DNA of 16,747 nucleotides from an uncultured archaeon. Its GTDB lineage: Archaea; Nanobdellota; Nanobdellia; Pacearchaeales; GW2011-AR1. Positions 3,389 to 9,632 of the stretch are shown here, piece after piece; within the stretch, counting starts at the first letter, position 1; every line of letters starts with the position of its first letter. The notes beneath the pieces were generated by a model. The model searched no databases. It was not told the origin of the DNA and saw only the letters and a list, made by a program, of their open reading frames with translations. Location of the stretch: assembly GCA_937982425.1 (NCBI GenBank), contig CALJLT010000005.1:1-16747 (forward strand), written 5' to 3'. The translations under genes and the position numbers were made by a program.

Positions 3389-3715
3389 TCAAAGATGTTT
3401 TTTTATAAGGTCACCAAGTTCTTCTTGAGTTCTTGAACCAGAAATAATTTCAAGAACTTTCCCCTCTCTTAAAATAATAAATGTGGGAACAACGCTTACA
3501 TCAAATTTTTGAGCAATTTCAGGAGAATCATCAATATTTACTTTCGCAAAAGAAACTTCTTCTTTAAATTCTTCAGCAAGATCTTCTATAACTGGGCCCA
3601 TCATTACACAAGGCATGCACCATTCTCCAAAAAAATCAATAAATAGCAATCCTTCTTTCTTGAAAAATTTTTCAAATTCTCCATTTGTTAATTCCGGTAC
3701 TTCTTCACTTTCCAT
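3389..3715 (-). CDS. trxA: Thioredoxin
   Basis: This 108-residue cytoplasmic thioredoxin has the normal length and fold order. Residues 32-36 are WCMPC, the redox-active CxxC motif in a variant of the classical WCGPC. The cis-proline lies in VVPTF at residue 77. The strands LLFIDFFGEW and VSFAKVNID and the C-terminal GKVLEIISG block also fit. It is a protein-disulfide reductant. Its place at the end of the nucleotide cluster suggests that one client is the ribonucleotide reductase NrdJ, whose C-terminus carries a redox-type Cys cluster; that pairing is inferred. It follows thyA by 45 bp and has a possible promoter of its own. No thioredoxin reductase is in the window. Confidence 0.95.
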   Translation of the reverse strand: MESEEVPELTNGEFEKFFKKEGLLFIDFFGEWCMPCVMMGPVIEDLAEEFKEEVSFAKVNIDDSPEIAQKFDVSVVPTFIILREGKVLEIISGSRTQEELGDLIKKHL

Positions 3716-3735
3716 CCAAAAATCAAGAAAATCCT

Positions 3736-3746
3736 TTTTATAAAAT
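3736..3746 (-). promoter_or_regulatory. Probable TATA element for thioredoxin (leaderless)
   Basis: A TTTTATAAAAA-type stretch on the minus strand is centred about 25 bases before the trx ATG at 3715, the spacing expected for a leaderless archaeal transcript. It suggests trx can be transcribed apart from the upstream nucleotide genes. Confidence 0.45.
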
Positions 3747-3760
3747 TTTATATTTTAGAA

Positions 3761-4942
3761 CTAAACACACATTTCTCTTTTTATCCTTTTATGAGATTGA
3801 TAATTTATTATATTAAAATCTTCCAATTCTAATTTATCAAAAGGTTTATCAGCAATTTCAAGAGTGCAAAGTTCTAAAGGATCATTTGCAAGTTGTTCAA
3901 GAATTGCTGTGACATGGTCGTAGTTTTCCATATTTCCATCAGCAGGTGCATTTTTATTTATCAATTCAACAACCTCAAGATAACCAGATTTATCTCCTTT
4001 TCTATCTTCCAAAGAAACAGCTTCATTTATTTTTCCTTGAACTTCTGAAAAATTTTCTTTATACCATTCTGTTCTCTCTCCTATTGAAGCATAGAAATGA
4101 GCATCTCCGAAAGTATGAACAAATGTTTTTGGAGTCATTCCAGCTTCTTTAGCAATTATTTGAGTTAATGCAGCATATTGTGCAATATTAAATGGAACTC
4201 CCAAAAACATATCACAACTTCTTTGATAAAGTTGCATTTCCATTTCTCCATTTTCGTTTGCAGTAGCTTGAAATAAAAGATGACAAGGAGGTAAAGACAT
4301 ATCCTCAATATCAGCAACATTCCATCCGGTTAAAATATGTTTTTTACCTGTAGGTTTTTTCTTTAAACCTTCAATCATAGCTCTAACTTGATCAATAAAT
4401 TTTTCTTGATAAATTTTTCCTTGAACTGGAACAAAAACTCCCCTTTCATTTTTAATATATACTTGCCCTTGATTTTCAACAGGAGAAAATTTACTCCATC
4501 TTCTCCATTGCTTTGGATATATTGGTCCCGCATCTCCCCATTGTCCCGCAAAATTAGAATCTTCTTTAATTCTATTCCCATAGTCTTCTTTTGCAGCAGT
4601 CCATTCAGGAGAATATTTTTGCATTCCTTTAGGATAAATTCCTGCTTCAACCATTTTATCTAAATTATAATTAAAAACATCTGCTCTCCAAACCGGAGAA
4701 CCCTTATCTTCAAGGTACTTGATATTTGTATCTCCTTTCAAAAACCACAATAATTCTGTAAACATAGATTTAGATTTAGCAGGCATTTGTTTTGTCGTCA
4801 GCAAAGGAAATCCTTTTGTTAAATCATACTCATTCTGGTATCCAAATAAAGAAATTATTCCCGACTCTTTACTTCCTCCCTTAAAATTTGAACGAGGAGA
4901 GGTCAATATTGCTTTAGCATGATCAAGGTATTGTTGCACCAT
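3761..4942 (-). CDS. thyA: Thymidylate synthase (ThyA type, enlarged)
   Basis: It methylates dUMP to dTMP using methylenetetrahydrofolate. Family motifs are clear: ELLWFLKGDTNIKYL (63-77), GPIYPKQWRRW (139-149), the catalytic LPPCH with Cys220, QRSCDMFLGVPFN (240-252) with the dUMP-binding Arg241, Asp244 and Asn252, HTFGDAHFY (276-284), and an FNIINY block near the end. At 393 residues it is about 130 longer than E. coli ThyA. Extra sequence lies near 86-137 (resembling the Lactobacillus casei insertion), 150-180 and 290-355. The paired phosphate-binding arginines of the partner subunit (Arg126-Arg127 in E. coli) are Lys200-Lys201 here, and the N-terminal loop that normally carries Arg21 reads SKESG. 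A TATA element 25 bases upstream supports this start as leaderless. Confidence 0.96.
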   Translation of the reverse strand: MVQQYLDHAKAILTSPRSNFKGGSKESGIISLFGYQNEYDLTKGFPLLTTKQMPAKSKSMFTELLWFLKGDTNIKYLEDKGSPVWRADVFNYNLDKMVEAGIYPKGMQKYSPEWTAAKEDYGNRIKEDSNFAGQWGDAGPIYPKQWRRWSKFSPVENQGQVYIKNERGVFVPVQGKIYQEKFIDQVRAMIEGLKKKPTGKKHILTGWNVADIEDMSLPPCHLLFQATANENGEMEMQLYQRSCDMFLGVPFNIAQYAALTQIIAKEAGMTPKTFVHTFGDAHFYASIGERTEWYKENFSEVQGKINEAVSLEDRKGDKSGYLEVVELINKNAPADGNMENYDHVTAILEQLANDPLELCTLEIADKPFDKLELEDFNIINYQSHKRIKREMCV

Positions 4943-4962
4943 TTAAAATAAAAATTTTTACT

Positions 4963-4972
4963 CTTTATAAGT
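4963..4972 (-). promoter_or_regulatory. TATA element for thyA (leaderless)
   Basis: The minus strand reads CTTATAAAG here, centred 25 bases before the thyA ATG at 4942, with no Shine-Dalgarno sequence between. This fits a leaderless internal promoter in the nucleotide cluster. Confidence 0.5.
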
Positions 4973-4983
4973 ATAATTATACT
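4970..4983. promoter_or_regulatory. 14-bp perfect palindrome ahead of the thyA TATA element
   Basis: AGTATAATTATACT is a perfect inverted repeat overlapping the upstream edge of the thyA TATA element, where an archaeal regulator or BRE-proximal factor could bind. It does not match the NrdR box, because the C and G at the conserved positions are absent. AT-rich palindromes arise easily by chance in this DNA. Confidence 0.3.
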
Positions 4984-4987
4984 AAAA

Positions 4988-5452
4988 TTATCTTTTTGAA
5001 ATAATACCAAAAAATCCAGATTTATCTAAAGCCATGTTAAATAAAAGAGCTCCTAAATCCTTTTCTTTAATTAAACCATCAGAAGGATCAATATATTTTA
5101 AAAGAGGATCCCTAAATTCTTCCATTAAAACTACATGTCTATCCCAAGCAATTAATACGTGTTCTTTTTTTGAACTAATCAATAAATCGCTTGGTTCATT
5201 AAACGGAGTTTCATTATAAGAATACAAATTAAAATTATAACCTTGATTAAATAAAAAATTTTCAAATTTGGAATCATTAAAATAAAAACCAGATTCATCT
5301 TTATTTAACTGACTTGCAATTAATTCTTGAGAAAATTTCTTTTTATCTTTATCTAAAATAGCTTGAACAACGGAACACAAACAATAATTTCTTTTTTCTT
5401 GGGAAATTAAACTATAATTTTTCATTTTATATTTTTGGTCCTTTTTGATCAA
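4988..5452 (-). CDS. Small protein with a putative papain/C39-like Cys-His-Asp triad
   Basis: I do not recognise a named family with certainty. From the first ATG the protein has 154 residues, but the start at 5425 (145 residues) is more likely: it lies one base after the dcd stop, giving translational coupling, whereas the longer form overlaps dcd by 26 bp. In short-form numbering, Gln9 is followed six residues later by Cys15 in NYCLCSVVQAIL, the Gln-to-Cys spacing of C39 peptidases. His97 in RHVVLME and Asp113 in KYIDPSDG complete a possible catalytic triad. No signal peptide or membrane segment is visible, so it should act in the cytoplasm. It sits between dcd and thyA; a role in nucleotide metabolism or its control is only a guess from position. 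Confidence 0.7.
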   Translation of the reverse strand: MIKKDQKYKMKNYSLISQEKRNYCLCSVVQAILDKDKKKFSQELIASQLNKDESGFYFNDSKFENFLFNQGYNFNLYSYNETPFNEPSDLLISSKKEHVLIAWDRHVVLMEEFRDPLLKYIDPSDGLIKEKDLGALLFNMALDKSGFFGIISKR

Positions 5453-5960
5453 GAAATTCTCCTTTATATCCTTTAGTAGATTTTGAACTTAATTGATGAA
5501 ATTCAATTTGACAAATAAGATTTCCATAATTAACCTCTATAGGAATTTGAGCAGAATTAAATAATTCAAGAGTTATTTCCCCCCTGAAACCTGGACCTAT
5601 GTGTCCTGCAGTTTGAACAATTAATCCTTTTCTACCTATTTTACTTTTTCCATCAACTCTAGCAGAAATATAATTTGGAAGGGTTAGTTTTTCTAAAGTA
5701 GTTCCTAAAATAAAATGATGTGGAAGAATAGTTATTTTTTCAGTTATTCTTTCCTCATGAGGAAAATCTTCATTTAGTTTTATTACTGCTTTTCCTAAAT
5801 CATTATAATAACTTGGAATTAAAAAGTGATTGCCTAATCTAAAATCAATAGTTGCTCCTTGGACATTTTCTTTAATATAGGGTTCAATTTTGATGACCCC
5901 GTCTTGTACATACCTTTCAATATCTACATTAGATAAAATTCCCATAAAATATTTTTTCAT
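5427..5960 (-). CDS. dcd: dCTP deaminase family protein
   Basis: It belongs to the trimeric dCTP deaminase/dUTPase superfamily and is expected to deaminate dCTP to dUTP. The start at Met6 (5945, MGILS...) matches the usual family N-terminus and has an AT-rich TATA-like stretch 26 bases upstream; 5960 gives five extra residues. In the longer numbering, GATIDFRLG (35-43), DGKSKIGRKG (103-112) with Ser106 and Arg110 (E. coli Ser111 and Arg115), and the core GFRGEITLEL with Glu132 (E. coli catalytic Glu138) are present. The Asp normally ten residues before that Glu, needed for diphosphate hydrolysis in bifunctional DCD-DUT enzymes, is Gly122 (HIGPGF). With a separate dut next door, a deaminase-only role seems likely. 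Confidence 0.92.
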   Translation of the reverse strand: MKKYFMGILSNVDIERYVQDGVIKIEPYIKENVQGATIDFRLGNHFLIPSYYNDLGKAVIKLNEDFPHEERITEKITILPHHFILGTTLEKLTLPNYISARVDGKSKIGRKGLIVQTAGHIGPGFRGEITLELFNSAQIPIEVNYGNLICQIEFHQLSSKSTKGYKGEFLDQKGPKI

Positions 5961-5998
5961 TTAAACTTTTTAAATTAAATTATTCAAAATAATATAAA

Positions 5999-6421
5999 TT
6001 ATTTCAAACCACTACTTCCAAAACCTTTTTTTCCTCTTTCGGTTTTATCTAAATCTTTAACTTCTTCAATTATTCCGCAAACAATCGGTTGAATTAAAAT
6101 CTGCGCAACTTTTTCGCCCTTTTTTATTTCATAAGGTTTACTGGATACATTAAGTAATGCAATTTTAATTTCCCCCCTGTAACCAGAATCAATAACTCCC
6201 GCCATTGTTTTAATTCCCTTAGTAGCCAAACCAGATTTATCCCAAACTAAAGCAACATATTTTTTTGGAACAGCAATGGCAATCCCCGTTGGAACAAGAG
6301 TTCTATGATGAGGCATTAAAAAAAGATCTGTATTTGAATATATATCCATTCCTGCATCTCCCGGATTTGCATAAGTTGGTAATTTTGCCGAAGAGTCTAA
6401 TCTTTTAATTTTTATCTTCAT
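5999..6421 (-). CDS. dut: dUTP diphosphatase (dUTPase)
   Basis: This 140-residue trimeric dUTPase hydrolyses dUTP to dUMP and diphosphate, protecting DNA from uracil and supplying ThyA. All five family motifs appear in order: I, PGDAGMDIYS; II, WDKSGLATKG; III, GVIDSGYRGEI with the catalytic Asp and uracil-stacking Tyr; IV, GEKVAQILIQP; and V, ERGKKGFGSSG near the C-terminus, which closes over the substrate. Motif II has DKSGLA instead of the commoner PRSGLA. Length is normal. It lies between nrdJ and dcd on the same strand, with gaps of 46 and 38 bp, so it is probably co-transcribed. There is no fusion to the deaminase. Confidence 0.97.
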   Translation of the reverse strand: MKIKIKRLDSSAKLPTYANPGDAGMDIYSNTDLFLMPHHRTLVPTGIAIAVPKKYVALVWDKSGLATKGIKTMAGVIDSGYRGEIKIALLNVSSKPYEIKKGEKVAQILIQPIVCGIIEEVKDLDKTERGKKGFGSSGLK

Positions 6422-6467: not shown

Positions 6468-9047
6468 TTAAGAACACTTTTCTCCACATCCGCAAGTTTC
6501 ACATCCATTTTGAAAAATAATTGGAAAATTACACTCTGAGCAAACAATTCCTTTTTCTTCTCCATCTGGAACGTATTTTCTTAATGCCCTCAAAACACCT
6601 TTCTTCCAAGTATTAAATCCTTCCATTTCTTCATCGAGTTTTTCAACAATTTTAATTATGTGGGTAACAGGTGAACCTTCACGAAGCAAACCAGAAACTA
6701 ATCTTGCATAATTCCAATATTCTCTATTAAATTGATGAGAGATTCCTCCAACAACATTTTCAAATCCAACTTCATTAGGATAAATAAAATCATACTGAGA
6801 ACCTTTTCCTTGAATCTTAGATCCTATTTTTTTAATTTTTCCTTTATCTATCTCTTCTGGAATATAAAGCATAGATCCCTCTGGTTTACCTGTAAAAATT
6901 TCATAAGGTTTTCCATTTATAGTTCCAATAAAAGCTATCCAATCTTCTCCTCCATTATCGTTAGAATTTTTAAATCTCCAAAGATCTGCATCGATAATTT
7001 CAGGTCTGTCTTTAGGAAAAGTTAAATCTTCTAATTTATTACTTTTACGATTCATTACTCCTTGTCTAGAACCCTCTCTATAAACTGTCATTCCTTTACA
7101 TCCAACTTCCCAAGCTCTCATATAAGTTGCTCCCACAATTTCTTCAGAAACATCCTCTGGCATATTAATTGTGACACTAATTGAATGATCTACCCATTTC
7201 TGAATTTCTCCTTGCATTCTAACTTTTTCGAGATAATCCACATCAGCAGAAGTGGCTTTATGATAAGGAGAAACTTCAATTATTCTTTTAAATTCTTGAG
7301 ATTCTGGATCCATTTTTTCAACTTCTTCAAGATTATAACCATTAATAATTAACCAATCCCTGAATTTGTGATGGAAAACATTAAAATCCTGCCATTTAGT
7401 TCCGTCTTTATCCACCCTGCTAACTTCAATTTCTGGATCATCTTTATTTACTTTGGTGCTCCTAACATAACTTAAAAGATAAGCTGGTTCTATGCCTGAA
7501 GTGGTTTGAGACATCATGCTAACAGTTCCTGTTGGAGCAATAGTTAACAAAGCAATATTTCTTCTTCCATGTTTAACCATTTCTTCATATAAGTTTGGAT
7601 CGACTTCCGCTAATCTTTTTATAAAAGGATTATTTTTTTCTAATTCTGGATTATAAATTCCAAAAGCCCCTCTTTCTTTTGCTAGCTCTACTGACCCCCT
7701 ATAAACTTCAGTAGAAAGAGTCCTATGAATCTCTGTTGAAAATTCAGTGGCCTCGGGAGTTCCATAAGTATAACCCAAAGCAGCAAGCATATCTCCTTCT
7801 GAAGTAACTCCTATTCCAGTACGTCTTCCTCCATTATTTTTTTCTCGAATTTTTTGCCATAATGTCCTCTCTCTTATTTTCAATTCTTCTGGTTCACCAT
7901 CTGAATCTATTTTCCTTAGGATTTCTTCTATCTTTTCTCCTTCGAGATCAACTATGTCATCCATAACTCTCTGAGCATATCTTGCATGTTGACGAAACTT
8001 TTCTTTGTTAAATCTGGCTTCAGAAGTAAAAGGATTTTCTACATAATTAAATAAATTAATTGACAATAACCTACAAGAATCATACGGGCAAAGTGGAATT
8101 TCTCCGCAAGGATTAGTTGAAGTAGACTTATACCCAAATTCTGAATAAACATCTGGAACAGATTCTCTTTCGATAGTATCCCAAAATAAAACTCCCGGTT
8201 CTGCAGATTTCCAAGCATTATGGATAATCTTTTCCCAAAGAGCTCTAGCATCAATTTCTCGTGTATAAATTGGATTATTTGAATCTACAGGAAACTGTTG
8301 AAGATAAGGTTTATCTTCTATGACTGCTTTCATAAAATCATCTCTAATTTTTATAGAAACATTTGCTCCCGTAATCCTCTCAGTATCTAGTTTAGCATCA
8401 ATAAATCTTTCTGCATCAGGATGTCTTATATCTAAACTTAACATTAAAGCTCCACGACGTCCTCCTTGAGCAACTTCTTTAGTAGAATTAGAATATCTCT
8501 CCATAAAAGGAACAACTCCCGTAGAAGTCAAAGCACTATTATTAACATGACTTTCATACGGCCTTATATGTGAAAGATCATGTCCTACTCCTCCTCGACG
8601 TTTCATTAATTGAACTTGCTCTTCATCAACGGCCATTATTCCTCCATATGAATCAGCTCCGTGCCCAATAACAAAACAATTAGAAAGAGAAACAATTTGT
8701 TTATTATTTCCAATACCGAACATATTGCTTCCTCCTGGAATTAAATATCTAAAATTATCAAATAAATCAAAAATTTGCCCTTCCGAAAGTTGATTTTCTC
8801 CCCCGTATTTTGCTTCAATTCTAGCAATTTCACTTGCCATCCTATGATGCATTTGATTTGGACTACCTTCATATAAATTTCCTTGAGAATCCTTAAGAGC
8901 ATATTTTTCAACCCATTTTTTAGCGGCAAGTTCATCTCCCCTAAAATAATCCAAAGAAGAATTAATTGCCTCTTCCTTAGAATAAATTCTCAAATCACTT
9001 CTAACAACTCTCGGAGAATCAAATTTATCGCTTAACTCTTTTCCCAT
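6468..9047 (-). CDS. nrdJ: Ribonucleotide reductase, class II, adenosylcobalamin-dependent
   Basis: It reduces ribonucleotides to deoxyribonucleotides using adenosylcobalamin to start the radical. At 859 residues it has the standard catalytic residues: Cys124 in SLSNCF, the NPCGE motif at 312-316 (Asn312, radical Cys314, Glu316) and Cys325 in DSCRLLS. These spacings match Thermotoga maritima NrdJ. RRGGVGHDLSHIRP (150-163), IAPTGTVSMMSQ and CKGMTVYREGS follow. The C-terminus has CSEC and CETCGCGEKC, a Cys cluster expected to pass electrons from thioredoxin to the active site. There is no N-terminal ATP cone and no intein, although this gene family often carries one. It follows nrdR by 53 bp. 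Need for cobalamin implies uptake from outside or from a host, as no cobalamin genes or riboswitch are visible. Confidence 0.97.
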   Translation of the reverse strand: MGKELSDKFDSPRVVRSDLRIYSKEEAINSSLDYFRGDELAAKKWVEKYALKDSQGNLYEGSPNQMHHRMASEIARIEAKYGGENQLSEGQIFDLFDNFRYLIPGGSNMFGIGNNKQIVSLSNCFVIGHGADSYGGIMAVDEEQVQLMKRRGGVGHDLSHIRPYESHVNNSALTSTGVVPFMERYSNSTKEVAQGGRRGALMLSLDIRHPDAERFIDAKLDTERITGANVSIKIRDDFMKAVIEDKPYLQQFPVDSNNPIYTREIDARALWEKIIHNAWKSAEPGVLFWDTIERESVPDVYSEFGYKSTSTNPCGEIPLCPYDSCRLLSINLFNYVENPFTSEARFNKEKFRQHARYAQRVMDDIVDLEGEKIEEILRKIDSDGEPEELKIRERTLWQKIREKNNGGRRTGIGVTSEGDMLAALGYTYGTPEATEFSTEIHRTLSTEVYRGSVELAKERGAFGIYNPELEKNNPFIKRLAEVDPNLYEEMVKHGRRNIALLTIAPTGTVSMMSQTTSGIEPAYLLSYVRSTKVNKDDPEIEVSRVDKDGTKWQDFNVFHHKFRDWLIINGYNLEEVEKMDPESQEFKRIIEVSPYHKATSADVDYLEKVRMQGEIQKWVDHSISVTINMPEDVSEEIVGATYMRAWEVGCKGMTVYREGSRQGVMNRKSNKLEDLTFPKDRPEIIDADLWRFKNSNDNGGEDWIAFIGTINGKPYEIFTGKPEGSMLYIPEEIDKGKIKKIGSKIQGKGSQYDFIYPNEVGFENVVGGISHQFNREYWNYARLVSGLLREGSPVTHIIKIVEKLDEEMEGFNTWKKGVLRALRKYVPDGEEKGIVCSECNFPIIFQNGCETCGCGEKCS

Positions 9048-9100: not shown

Positions 9101-9538
9101 TTACAAACTTTTTATCTCCTTTATAAAATCATCAATTTCTTTGAACTCCCTATAAACTGAAGCAAAACGAACATACGCAACCTTGTCTATTTTTTTTATT
9201 TTATTCATTACCATTTCACCCAGTTTTCTTGATTCTATTTCTTTTTTTCCTTTTCTCCTTATATCTTGTTCAATTGAATCTGCAATTTCTTCTATTTTAT
9301 TTCTTGGAATCGCTCGCTTTTCAAATGCCCTATCCAAAGCTCGCTTTATTTTTTCTAAATCAAATCTCTGACGAGATTTATCTTTTTTTATTACGTAAAT
9401 TTCCGATTCAACCACATTCTCGTAAGTCGTATATCTTCTACCACACTTTAAACACTCTCTTCTTCTACGAACTCCTTCAGGAGAACTCCTCTTATTTGTT
9501 ACCTTGGATTTTGTATCGCCGCAAAATGGACAATTCAT
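9101..9538 (-). CDS. nrdR: Transcriptional repressor NrdR
   Basis: NrdR represses ribonucleotide reductase genes after sensing ATP and dATP. From Met at 9538 it has 145 residues: a zinc ribbon starting MNCPFCG and continuing through RRRRECLKCGRRYTTYE (four zinc Cys), then an ATP-cone domain (YVIKKDKSRQRFDLEKIKRALDRAF onward), and a C-terminal helix. An ATG at 9556 would add six residues not typical of the family, and that ATG lies within the NrdR-box palindrome, so 9538 is preferred. NrdR is near-universal in bacteria but sparse in archaea, so horizontal origin is possible. It heads the cluster, directly upstream of nrdJ, and probably autoregulates. Confidence 0.96.
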   Translation of the reverse strand: MNCPFCGDTKSKVTNKRSSPEGVRRRRECLKCGRRYTTYENVVESEIYVIKKDKSRQRFDLEKIKRALDRAFEKRAIPRNKIEEIADSIEQDIRRKGKKEIESRKLGEMVMNKIKKIDKVAYVRFASVYREFKEIDDFIKEIKSL

Positions 9539-9551
9539 ATTTTTTATTAAA

Positions 9552-9565
9552 TACAATATATTGTA
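9552..9565. promoter_or_regulatory. NrdR box, proximal
   Basis: TACAATATATTGTA is a perfect 14-bp palindrome. Its central CAATATATTG matches the core of the known NrdR box (CWATATATWG) at every position. It ends 14 bases before the preferred nrdR start. The match to the box of the very regulator encoded next to it makes chance unlikely. Confidence 0.75.
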
Positions 9566-9583
9566 CTTAATACCCCCTTAAAT

Positions 9584-9597
9584 TACCACTAATGGTA
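9584..9597. promoter_or_regulatory. NrdR box, distal and degenerate
   Basis: TACCACTAATGGTA is an imperfect palindrome (TACCA/TGGTA) matching the proximal box at 9 of 14 positions. Its centre is 32 bp from the proximal one, the roughly three-helical-turn spacing typical of paired NrdR boxes in bacteria. Confidence 0.55.
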
Positions 9598-9624
9598 TTT
9601 TGTAGATTATTAAAAATTAATAAG

Positions 9625-9632
9625 TATTTAAA
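9625..9632 (-). promoter_or_regulatory. Probable TATA element for nrdR and the nucleotide cluster
   Basis: The minus strand reads TTTAAATA here. Transcription would begin near 9600-9605, placing both NrdR boxes in the first 50 or so transcribed bases, a normal position for repression. A second TTAATAATC-like stretch near 9606-9617 is an alternative. Confidence 0.45.

Follow-up and report, generated by a model that had tools for sequence, protein, structure and literature searches.

Two palindromes lie upstream of nrdR in a 16,747-nucleotide stretch of DNA from an uncultured archaeon (hereafter the window), and we consider them, with a probability of roughly 0.8, to be the predicted operator of the NrdR repressor encoded directly behind them. 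The observed basis for this reading consists of the sequences of the two sites, their spacing and statistics, the protein family of the repressor and the residues retained in it, and box-like sites at other archaeal nrdR genes; from these we infer that NrdR binds, responds to nucleotides, and represses, as well as which promoter element is used. The repressor and the logic of its boxes are bacterial, but neither the type of promoter nor the set of contact residues is. Positions of the features are given in Table 1.

Table 1. Features of the window and of the loci compared with it (window coordinates unless a locus is named; for clostridial loci, matrix scores of the two boxes and their spacing).
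Feature	Position	Strand	Details
nrdR (Zn ribbon + ATP-cone repressor, 145 aa)	9101-9538	-	ATG 9538
nrdJ (adenosylcobalamin-dependent class II ribonucleotide reductase, 859 aa)	6468-9047	-	TIGR02504, 538.9 bits (cut-off 399.95)
dut, dcd, 154-aa ORF, thyA, trx	3389-6421	-	Pfam/NCBIfam
Predicted NrdR box 1 (core 14-mer, proximal to nrdR)	9552-9565; 16-mer 9551-9566, ATACAATATATTGTAC		contact pair C9554/G9563; perfect palindrome; 17.2 bits
Predicted NrdR box 2 (degenerate, distal)	9584-9597; 16-mer 9583-9598, TTACCACTAATGGTAT		C9586/G9595 kept; 32-bp spacing; 6/7 pairs
Candidate TATA element P1, TTTAAATA	9625-9632	-	exact consensus match; -94 from ATG
Alternative TATA element P2, TTAAGTAC	9563-9570	-	by eye; -32 to -25 from ATG; overlaps box 1
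L045 (clostridial nrdR)			proximal 18.8, distal -0.6; 32 bp
L046 (clostridial nrdR)			proximal 24.0, distal 5.3; 30 bp
L047 (clostridial nrdR)			proximal 22.0, distal 5.1; 30 bp
L054 (clostridial nrdR)			proximal 22.8, distal -3.8; 30 bp
Haloarchaeal box-like pairs	L131-L136, about 3924-3970
Bathyarchaeia-like nrdR promoters	L063 7916-7971; L064 4106-4161		TATA-like element, palindrome GCGCTAA..ATAG.GT, ACACTA 32 bp further

A Probable NrdR Box Pair at the Bacterial Spacing

The site nearer to nrdR (box 1) has at its core the palindrome TACAATATATTGTA, read directly from the DNA. Perfect 14-nucleotide palindromes are frequent in the AT-rich window, which contains six of them, and for this reason the palindromy of box 1 was dropped as evidence in itself and its letters were tested against the NrdR box. 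Ribonucleotide reductase (RNR) genes were sought in two sets of 60 genomes, drawn around two bacterial genomes, with matches in 26 and 58 of the 60, respectively, and 60 loci were taken. A scan of these loci (two duplicates included) with the NrdR box consensus gave 54 box pairs at a spacing of 17-49, 37 of the 54 at 31 or 32, and the best pair lay at 30-32 in 31 of all 60 loci. A matrix was then built of 29 pairs from 58 loci, leaving out L164 and L165 as repeats of L151 and L145; L163 and L166, further pieces of the L158 and L157 genes, were kept among the 58, and neither supplied a pair. The training pairs score high by construction because they were selected with the known consensus; the window was excluded from the training.

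A plain count of consensus letters, with which box 1 agrees at 13 of 16 positions, proved too coarse over the whole window, where shuffling gave a single site equal to box 1 in 92 of 400 trials and an equally good pair in 10 of 400, and we therefore adopted the matrix. Within the 189-nt intergenic region, the same count was attained by a pair in 5 of 20,000 shuffles. On the matrix, box 1 ranks first among 16,732 window positions, the runner-up scoring 11.2 bits, and its score was reached in 0 of 1000 whole-window shuffles and in approximately 1e-4 of 50,000 intergenic shuffles. The other five perfect palindromes all fall outside the eight top matrix sites of the window. These data support the original prediction that the palindrome corresponds to the core of the NrdR box, which a 2014 review, in its accessible text, gives for bacteria as acaCwAtATaTwGtg (PMC4009431).

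The partner (box 2) has the core TACCACTAATGGTA, identical to TACAATATATTGTA at 9 of 14 positions. The box centres at 9558.5 and 9590.5 are separated by the distance that had been claimed for this weaker palindrome, and that distance matches the bacterial spacing of 31 or 32. Box 2 has 8 of 16 consensus letters, lacks the A-T centre typical of bacterial boxes, and scores -2.0 on the matrix, a value attained in about 3% of draws over four allowed offsets; the lowest weaker box among the 29 bacterial training pairs scores 3.5. Its offset from box 1 gives the highest palindromy among the 119 tried. Given box 1, the chance of finding its number of complementary pairs together with the C/G anchors at any of the four allowed offsets is about 6e-4. 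In intergenic shuffles the top 31/32-bp matrix pair was attained in 1 of 20,000, a result owed mostly to box 1.

The Encoded NrdR Protein

The repressor encoded behind the boxes matches the equivalog model TIGR00244 at 168.7 bits over residues 1-145 (cut-off 124.65), and Pfam identifies an ATP-cone (PF03477, 75.7 bits) and Zn_ribbon_NrdR. The sequences of five solved NrdR chains match it over nearly the full length, the best match spanning residues 1-143. The Zn ribbon is kept (C3, C6, C29, and C32 in two CxxC motifs), as are R17 and the RRRR motif at R24-R27. In the ATP-cone, K51, K52, Q57, K63, and Y129 occupy the contact positions held in Streptomyces coelicolor NrdR by K50, R51, E56, K62, and Y128, the numbering having been carried through the solved-chain alignment with a constant offset and not through an alignment to the S. 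coelicolor protein itself; the roles of these residues in S. coelicolor are described in the accessible text of PMC9110341. Q57 is also found in 61 of 63 bacterial rows. With the nucleotide-contact residues present, the window NrdR is a putative dATP sensor.

Asp15, a conserved bacterial specificity contact that is not part of the family-model definition, is absent here, its place being taken by Asn. Among bacterial rows of the alignment, Asp15 is present in 62 of 63 and Ser16 in 61 of 63. Among the best 120 of 7999 NrdR matches (own protein included), position 15 is Asn in 87 and Asp in 33, and Lys16 is found in all. In S. coelicolor the D15A protein binds every DNA tested, including, weakly, a control promoter, and the R17A protein binds none (PMC9110341). 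By analogy with D15A, Asn15 may make box recognition less stringent, a property that would go well with the degenerate box 2.

Besides the protein itself, the best 120 matches comprise 119 relatives with identities of 57-72%. Every one of the eight entries among them that carry an organism name belongs to the archaea (Nanoarchaeota, Nanoarchaeia, Pacearchaeota, or 'archaeon'). A 102-row tree groups the 28 members sampled from this set, the window protein among them, on one side of a branch (100/99) and away from Clostridia and haloarchaea; the analysis used few columns, its branches are long, and the bootstrap is unsettled. A scan of genome contigs with a single NrdR sequence gave 58 loci, all bacterial by title, and no close archaeal relative. 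Scanning viral contigs with a 28-row NrdR alignment gave 54 loci, among which L062-L067 match most or all of the protein, none at more than 47% identity. A 421-base query covering the start of nrdR and the intergenic region had no match among phages.

Comparison with Bacterial NrdR Operators

One of the closest known systems is the S. coelicolor nrdRJ promoter (PMC9110341; NrdR chains 7p37, 7p3f, and 7p3q), where nrdR and nrdJ stand together and encode a class II RNR, as here. The tetramer mechanism of that NrdR is published, and the protein reads C/G pairs at positions 9/18 and 40/49 (PMC9110341). In both systems the C/G pairs of a box are 9 apart and the boxes are spaced by three turns (31 in S. 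coelicolor, 32 here), and both NrdR proteins are full-length with R17, RRRR, and the nucleotide contacts. The window differs in its archaeal promoter, in its very weak second box, and in Asn15-Lys16, which replaces Asp15. The stretch from R17 to RRRR is also two residues shorter in the window NrdR (compared with the solved chain 9fvr), the arginines being at 24-27 and in S. coelicolor at 26-29.

We also examined 68 nrdR loci from bacteria and a viral collection, nine of which have a site of at least 11 bits within 300 nt. Four of the nine, all clostridial, combine a strong proximal with a weak distal box (Table 1). Here too the strong box lies near the gene and its weak partner away from it, so far as the sequences predict, and the asymmetric pair thereby appears to resemble that of the four clostridial genes. 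The strong clostridial box is nearly the same as box 1 at the nrdR genes of L046, L047, and L054 and at the RNR genes of L138 and L157 (class of G001); its letters are ATACAATATATTGTGT in L046 and L138 and ATACAATATATTGTAT in L157. Unlike the window sites, the clostridial boxes belong to bacterial promoters and go with bacterial NrdR of the Asp15-Ser16 type.

A scan of viral contigs for nrdJ gave nine loci, none with an NrdR match in the stretch examined; one of these, L118, is a gene fragment. None of the five best matrix sites at each of the nine lies within 300 nt before an intact nrdJ start. In L119-L124 (IMG/VR), the nrdJ matches come in pieces separated by about 1-1.6 kb, a pattern expected of inteins or introns.

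Candidate Promoter Elements

P1 matches the archaeal TATA consensus exactly, and P2 has fewer than seven of the eight consensus letters in the TATA scan. If P1 is used, transcription is predicted to start near 9602, leaving a leader of about 65 nt that contains both boxes; use of P2 would give a near-leaderless start right at the ATG. We examined 16 gene starts, and six of them (trx, dcd, u81, two pilin-like ORFs, and u483) are preceded by a TATA-like octamer that matches at 7 or all 8 letters and has its first position between -29 and -26, so short leaders may be usual in this DNA. The original prediction had placed both boxes between the TATA element and the nrdR start, which holds true for P1; P2 overlaps box 1. 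With either candidate, the boxes are predicted to be on the core promoter or on the first transcribed turns.

Box-Like Sites at Other Archaeal nrdR Genes

Two further groups of archaeal nrdR genes have box-like sites. Six haloarchaeal nrdR-RNR operons (L131-L136) were taken from the seven records listed, a second Halomicrobium mukohataei record being left out as a near-copy; the six are mutually related, so they do not represent six independent cases. The best matrix pair lies at 29 bp in five of these and at 30 bp in one, with shuffle fractions of 0.019, 0.0005, 0.00175, 0.00325, 0 of 4000, and 0.00025. In their alignment, an invariant TTTAT is followed by the first box-like site, so that in both the nrdR-nrdBA and nrdR-nrdAB arrangements two box-like palindromes stand just downstream of a TATA-like element. 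These operons differ from the window in being plasmid-borne, in encoding a class I RNR, in their spacing, and in their separate tree group; their NrdR keeps Asp15 and has lost Arg17, with Gly (four) or Glu (two) at position 17. A spacing of 29 corresponds to a 13-bp spacer if the box is 16 bp, outside the 14-17 bp spacers at which bacterial NrdR binds well according to the available text of PMC12051234. Haloarchaeal nrdR-RNR operons are listed in PMC3019208, the accessible text of which does not mention boxes. Used as a query, haloarchaeal NrdR produced four partial matches.

The second group is represented by two IMG/VR contigs, L063 and L064. The best 120 matches of the L064 NrdR are at 84-94% identity, and the 11 among them with an organism name are all assigned to Bathyarchaeia, Bathyarchaeota, or Bathyarchaeales; E15-T16-R17 is found in all 120 of these listed relatives. 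In the tree the NrdR of L063 lies close to that of L064, and on the L063 contig nrdR is followed by nrdD, with a portal-like gene (below the Pfam cut-off) on the same stretch. In L064 a 14.1-bit site directly follows CTTATATA and has a weak partner at 32 (shuffle fraction 0.002). L063 has no pair above its shuffles (0.51), although a palindrome sits at the equivalent place.

L062 has a pair of 26.2 bits, 33 bp apart, centred 117 nt from nrdR and attained in 0 of 4000 shuffles. On the nrdR strand, no open frame of at least 40 aa with a start codon covers the pair; on the opposite strand a 59-aa TTG frame does. We consider this pair a weak parallel to that of the window.

Alternative Explanations

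Several findings count against the operator reading: loss of Asp15 makes S. coelicolor NrdR bind unspecifically, and the window protein has Asn15; 59 of the 68 nrdR loci have no strong site; box 2 scores below all 29 weaker bacterial boxes; and the haloarchaeal 29-bp spacing, the L063 pair at shuffle level, and the 10 of 400 consensus-count shuffles point in the same direction. The weakness of box 2, in its matrix score and its missing A-T centre, would also fit an arrangement in which only box 1 is an NrdR site, with the partner a chance palindrome and NrdR binding one site or pairing elsewhere. We regard this as unlikely given the palindromy and C/G anchors of box 2 at exactly 32 bp, where it is the best of all offsets tried. 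Similarly weak partners moreover stand at bacterial nrdR promoters (L045 and L054), and one L062 box agrees with box 2 at 12 of 16 letters, counted by hand.

It is also conceivable that box 1 is part of an AT-rich core promoter, as a TBP site, and resembles an NrdR box by accident, given that AT-rich palindromes are common in the window, two of the perfect ones lying in the gaps before thyA and trx, and that TTAAGTAC and AATATATT overlap box 1. Box 1, however, has both the C/G pair and the flanking letters of bacterial boxes and a matrix score that no window shuffle attained, whereas the remaining perfect palindromes are absent from the top matrix sites, and such an accident seems highly improbable. 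Least probable of all, in our judgement, is that the repeats work in RNA as two hairpins within the 65-nt leader of the nrdR mRNA. Both palindromes do fold as hairpins (-12.7 kcal/mol, z -1.93), with 8 of 200 shuffles folding equally well, but hairpin folding is inherent to palindromic DNA, and an Rfam scan of the window at gathering scores returned tRNA and no other RNA element. The letters fit a protein-binding motif with helical spacing, neither of which RNA hairpins would need.

Proposed Mechanism and Significance

In the operator reading, high dATP would load the ATP-cone of NrdR with dATP and ATP and bring the protein into a tetramer, the two Zn-ribbon pairs of which would bind the two boxes three helical turns apart and bend the DNA. 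Box 1 would serve as the high-affinity site, with box 2 as a weak partner held through the tetramer. Bound NrdR would then exclude TBP/TFB or RNA polymerase from the nrdR-nrdJ promoter, and the levels of the class II RNR and of NrdR would drop together. If this is correct, a dATP-sensing repressor sets the dNTP supply in small archaea, and the promoter targeted by this bacterial-type repressor is of the eukaryote-like type. The natural change of Asp15 would likewise lend itself to testing how the repressor recognises its box.

According to the 2014 review, archaea have no NrdR box (PMC4009431), in contrast to the good box pair found here before an archaeal nrdR-nrdJ. Papers of 2022 (PMC9110341) and 2025 (PMC12176259) describe NrdR, in the text available, as rare in archaea. 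The organism-named NrdR entries among the best 120 matches of the window and L064 proteins (8 and 11) are all archaeal. In a search covering few subscription papers, we found no literature on NrdR together with DPANN, Nanoarchaeota, Woesearchaeota, or Bathyarchaeota, so that a report elsewhere is possible. As a speculative extension, with the odds somewhat against it, NrdR-box control might be general in archaea, present in at least three groups (with class II RNR in DPANN, class III in Bathyarchaeia, and class I in Haloarchaea), each with operators beside or downstream of TATA, its own residues 15-17 (N/D-K-R, E-T-R, and D-T-G/E, respectively), and its own spacing or letters. A bacterial dATP-sensing repressor would then have been adapted to TBP/TFB promoters on at least three occasions.

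The Deoxynucleotide Cluster

Elsewhere in the window are genes for subunit B of an archaeal RNA polymerase and for a glutamate-tRNA ligase of archaeal type. The claim that the boxes stand before an archaeal nrdR-nrdJ pair is supported by the matrix, the spacing, the statistics of the partner, the identity of the genes, and the archaeal parallels. Autoregulation had also been proposed for the whole deoxynucleotide cluster. The 53-nt gap between nrdR and nrdJ is free of runs of five T, whereas dut, thyA, and trx are each preceded by a gap with such a run. That NrdR controls every gene of the cluster is possible.

Three minor observations concern the genes of the cluster. Two of the perfect 14-nt palindromes, at 3739-3752 (gap before trx) and 4970-4983 (before thyA), lack the NrdR C/G pair and are perhaps TATA elements or sites of another regulator. 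Neither Pfam nor NCBIfam gives a match at 1e-3 for the 154-aa ORF (4988-5452, - strand), which overlaps dcd; its Cys/His/Asp pattern, judged by eye, resembles that of a C39-type peptidase. The product of thyA (3761-4942, - strand) has 393 aa against 266 Pfam model positions, pointing to inserts.
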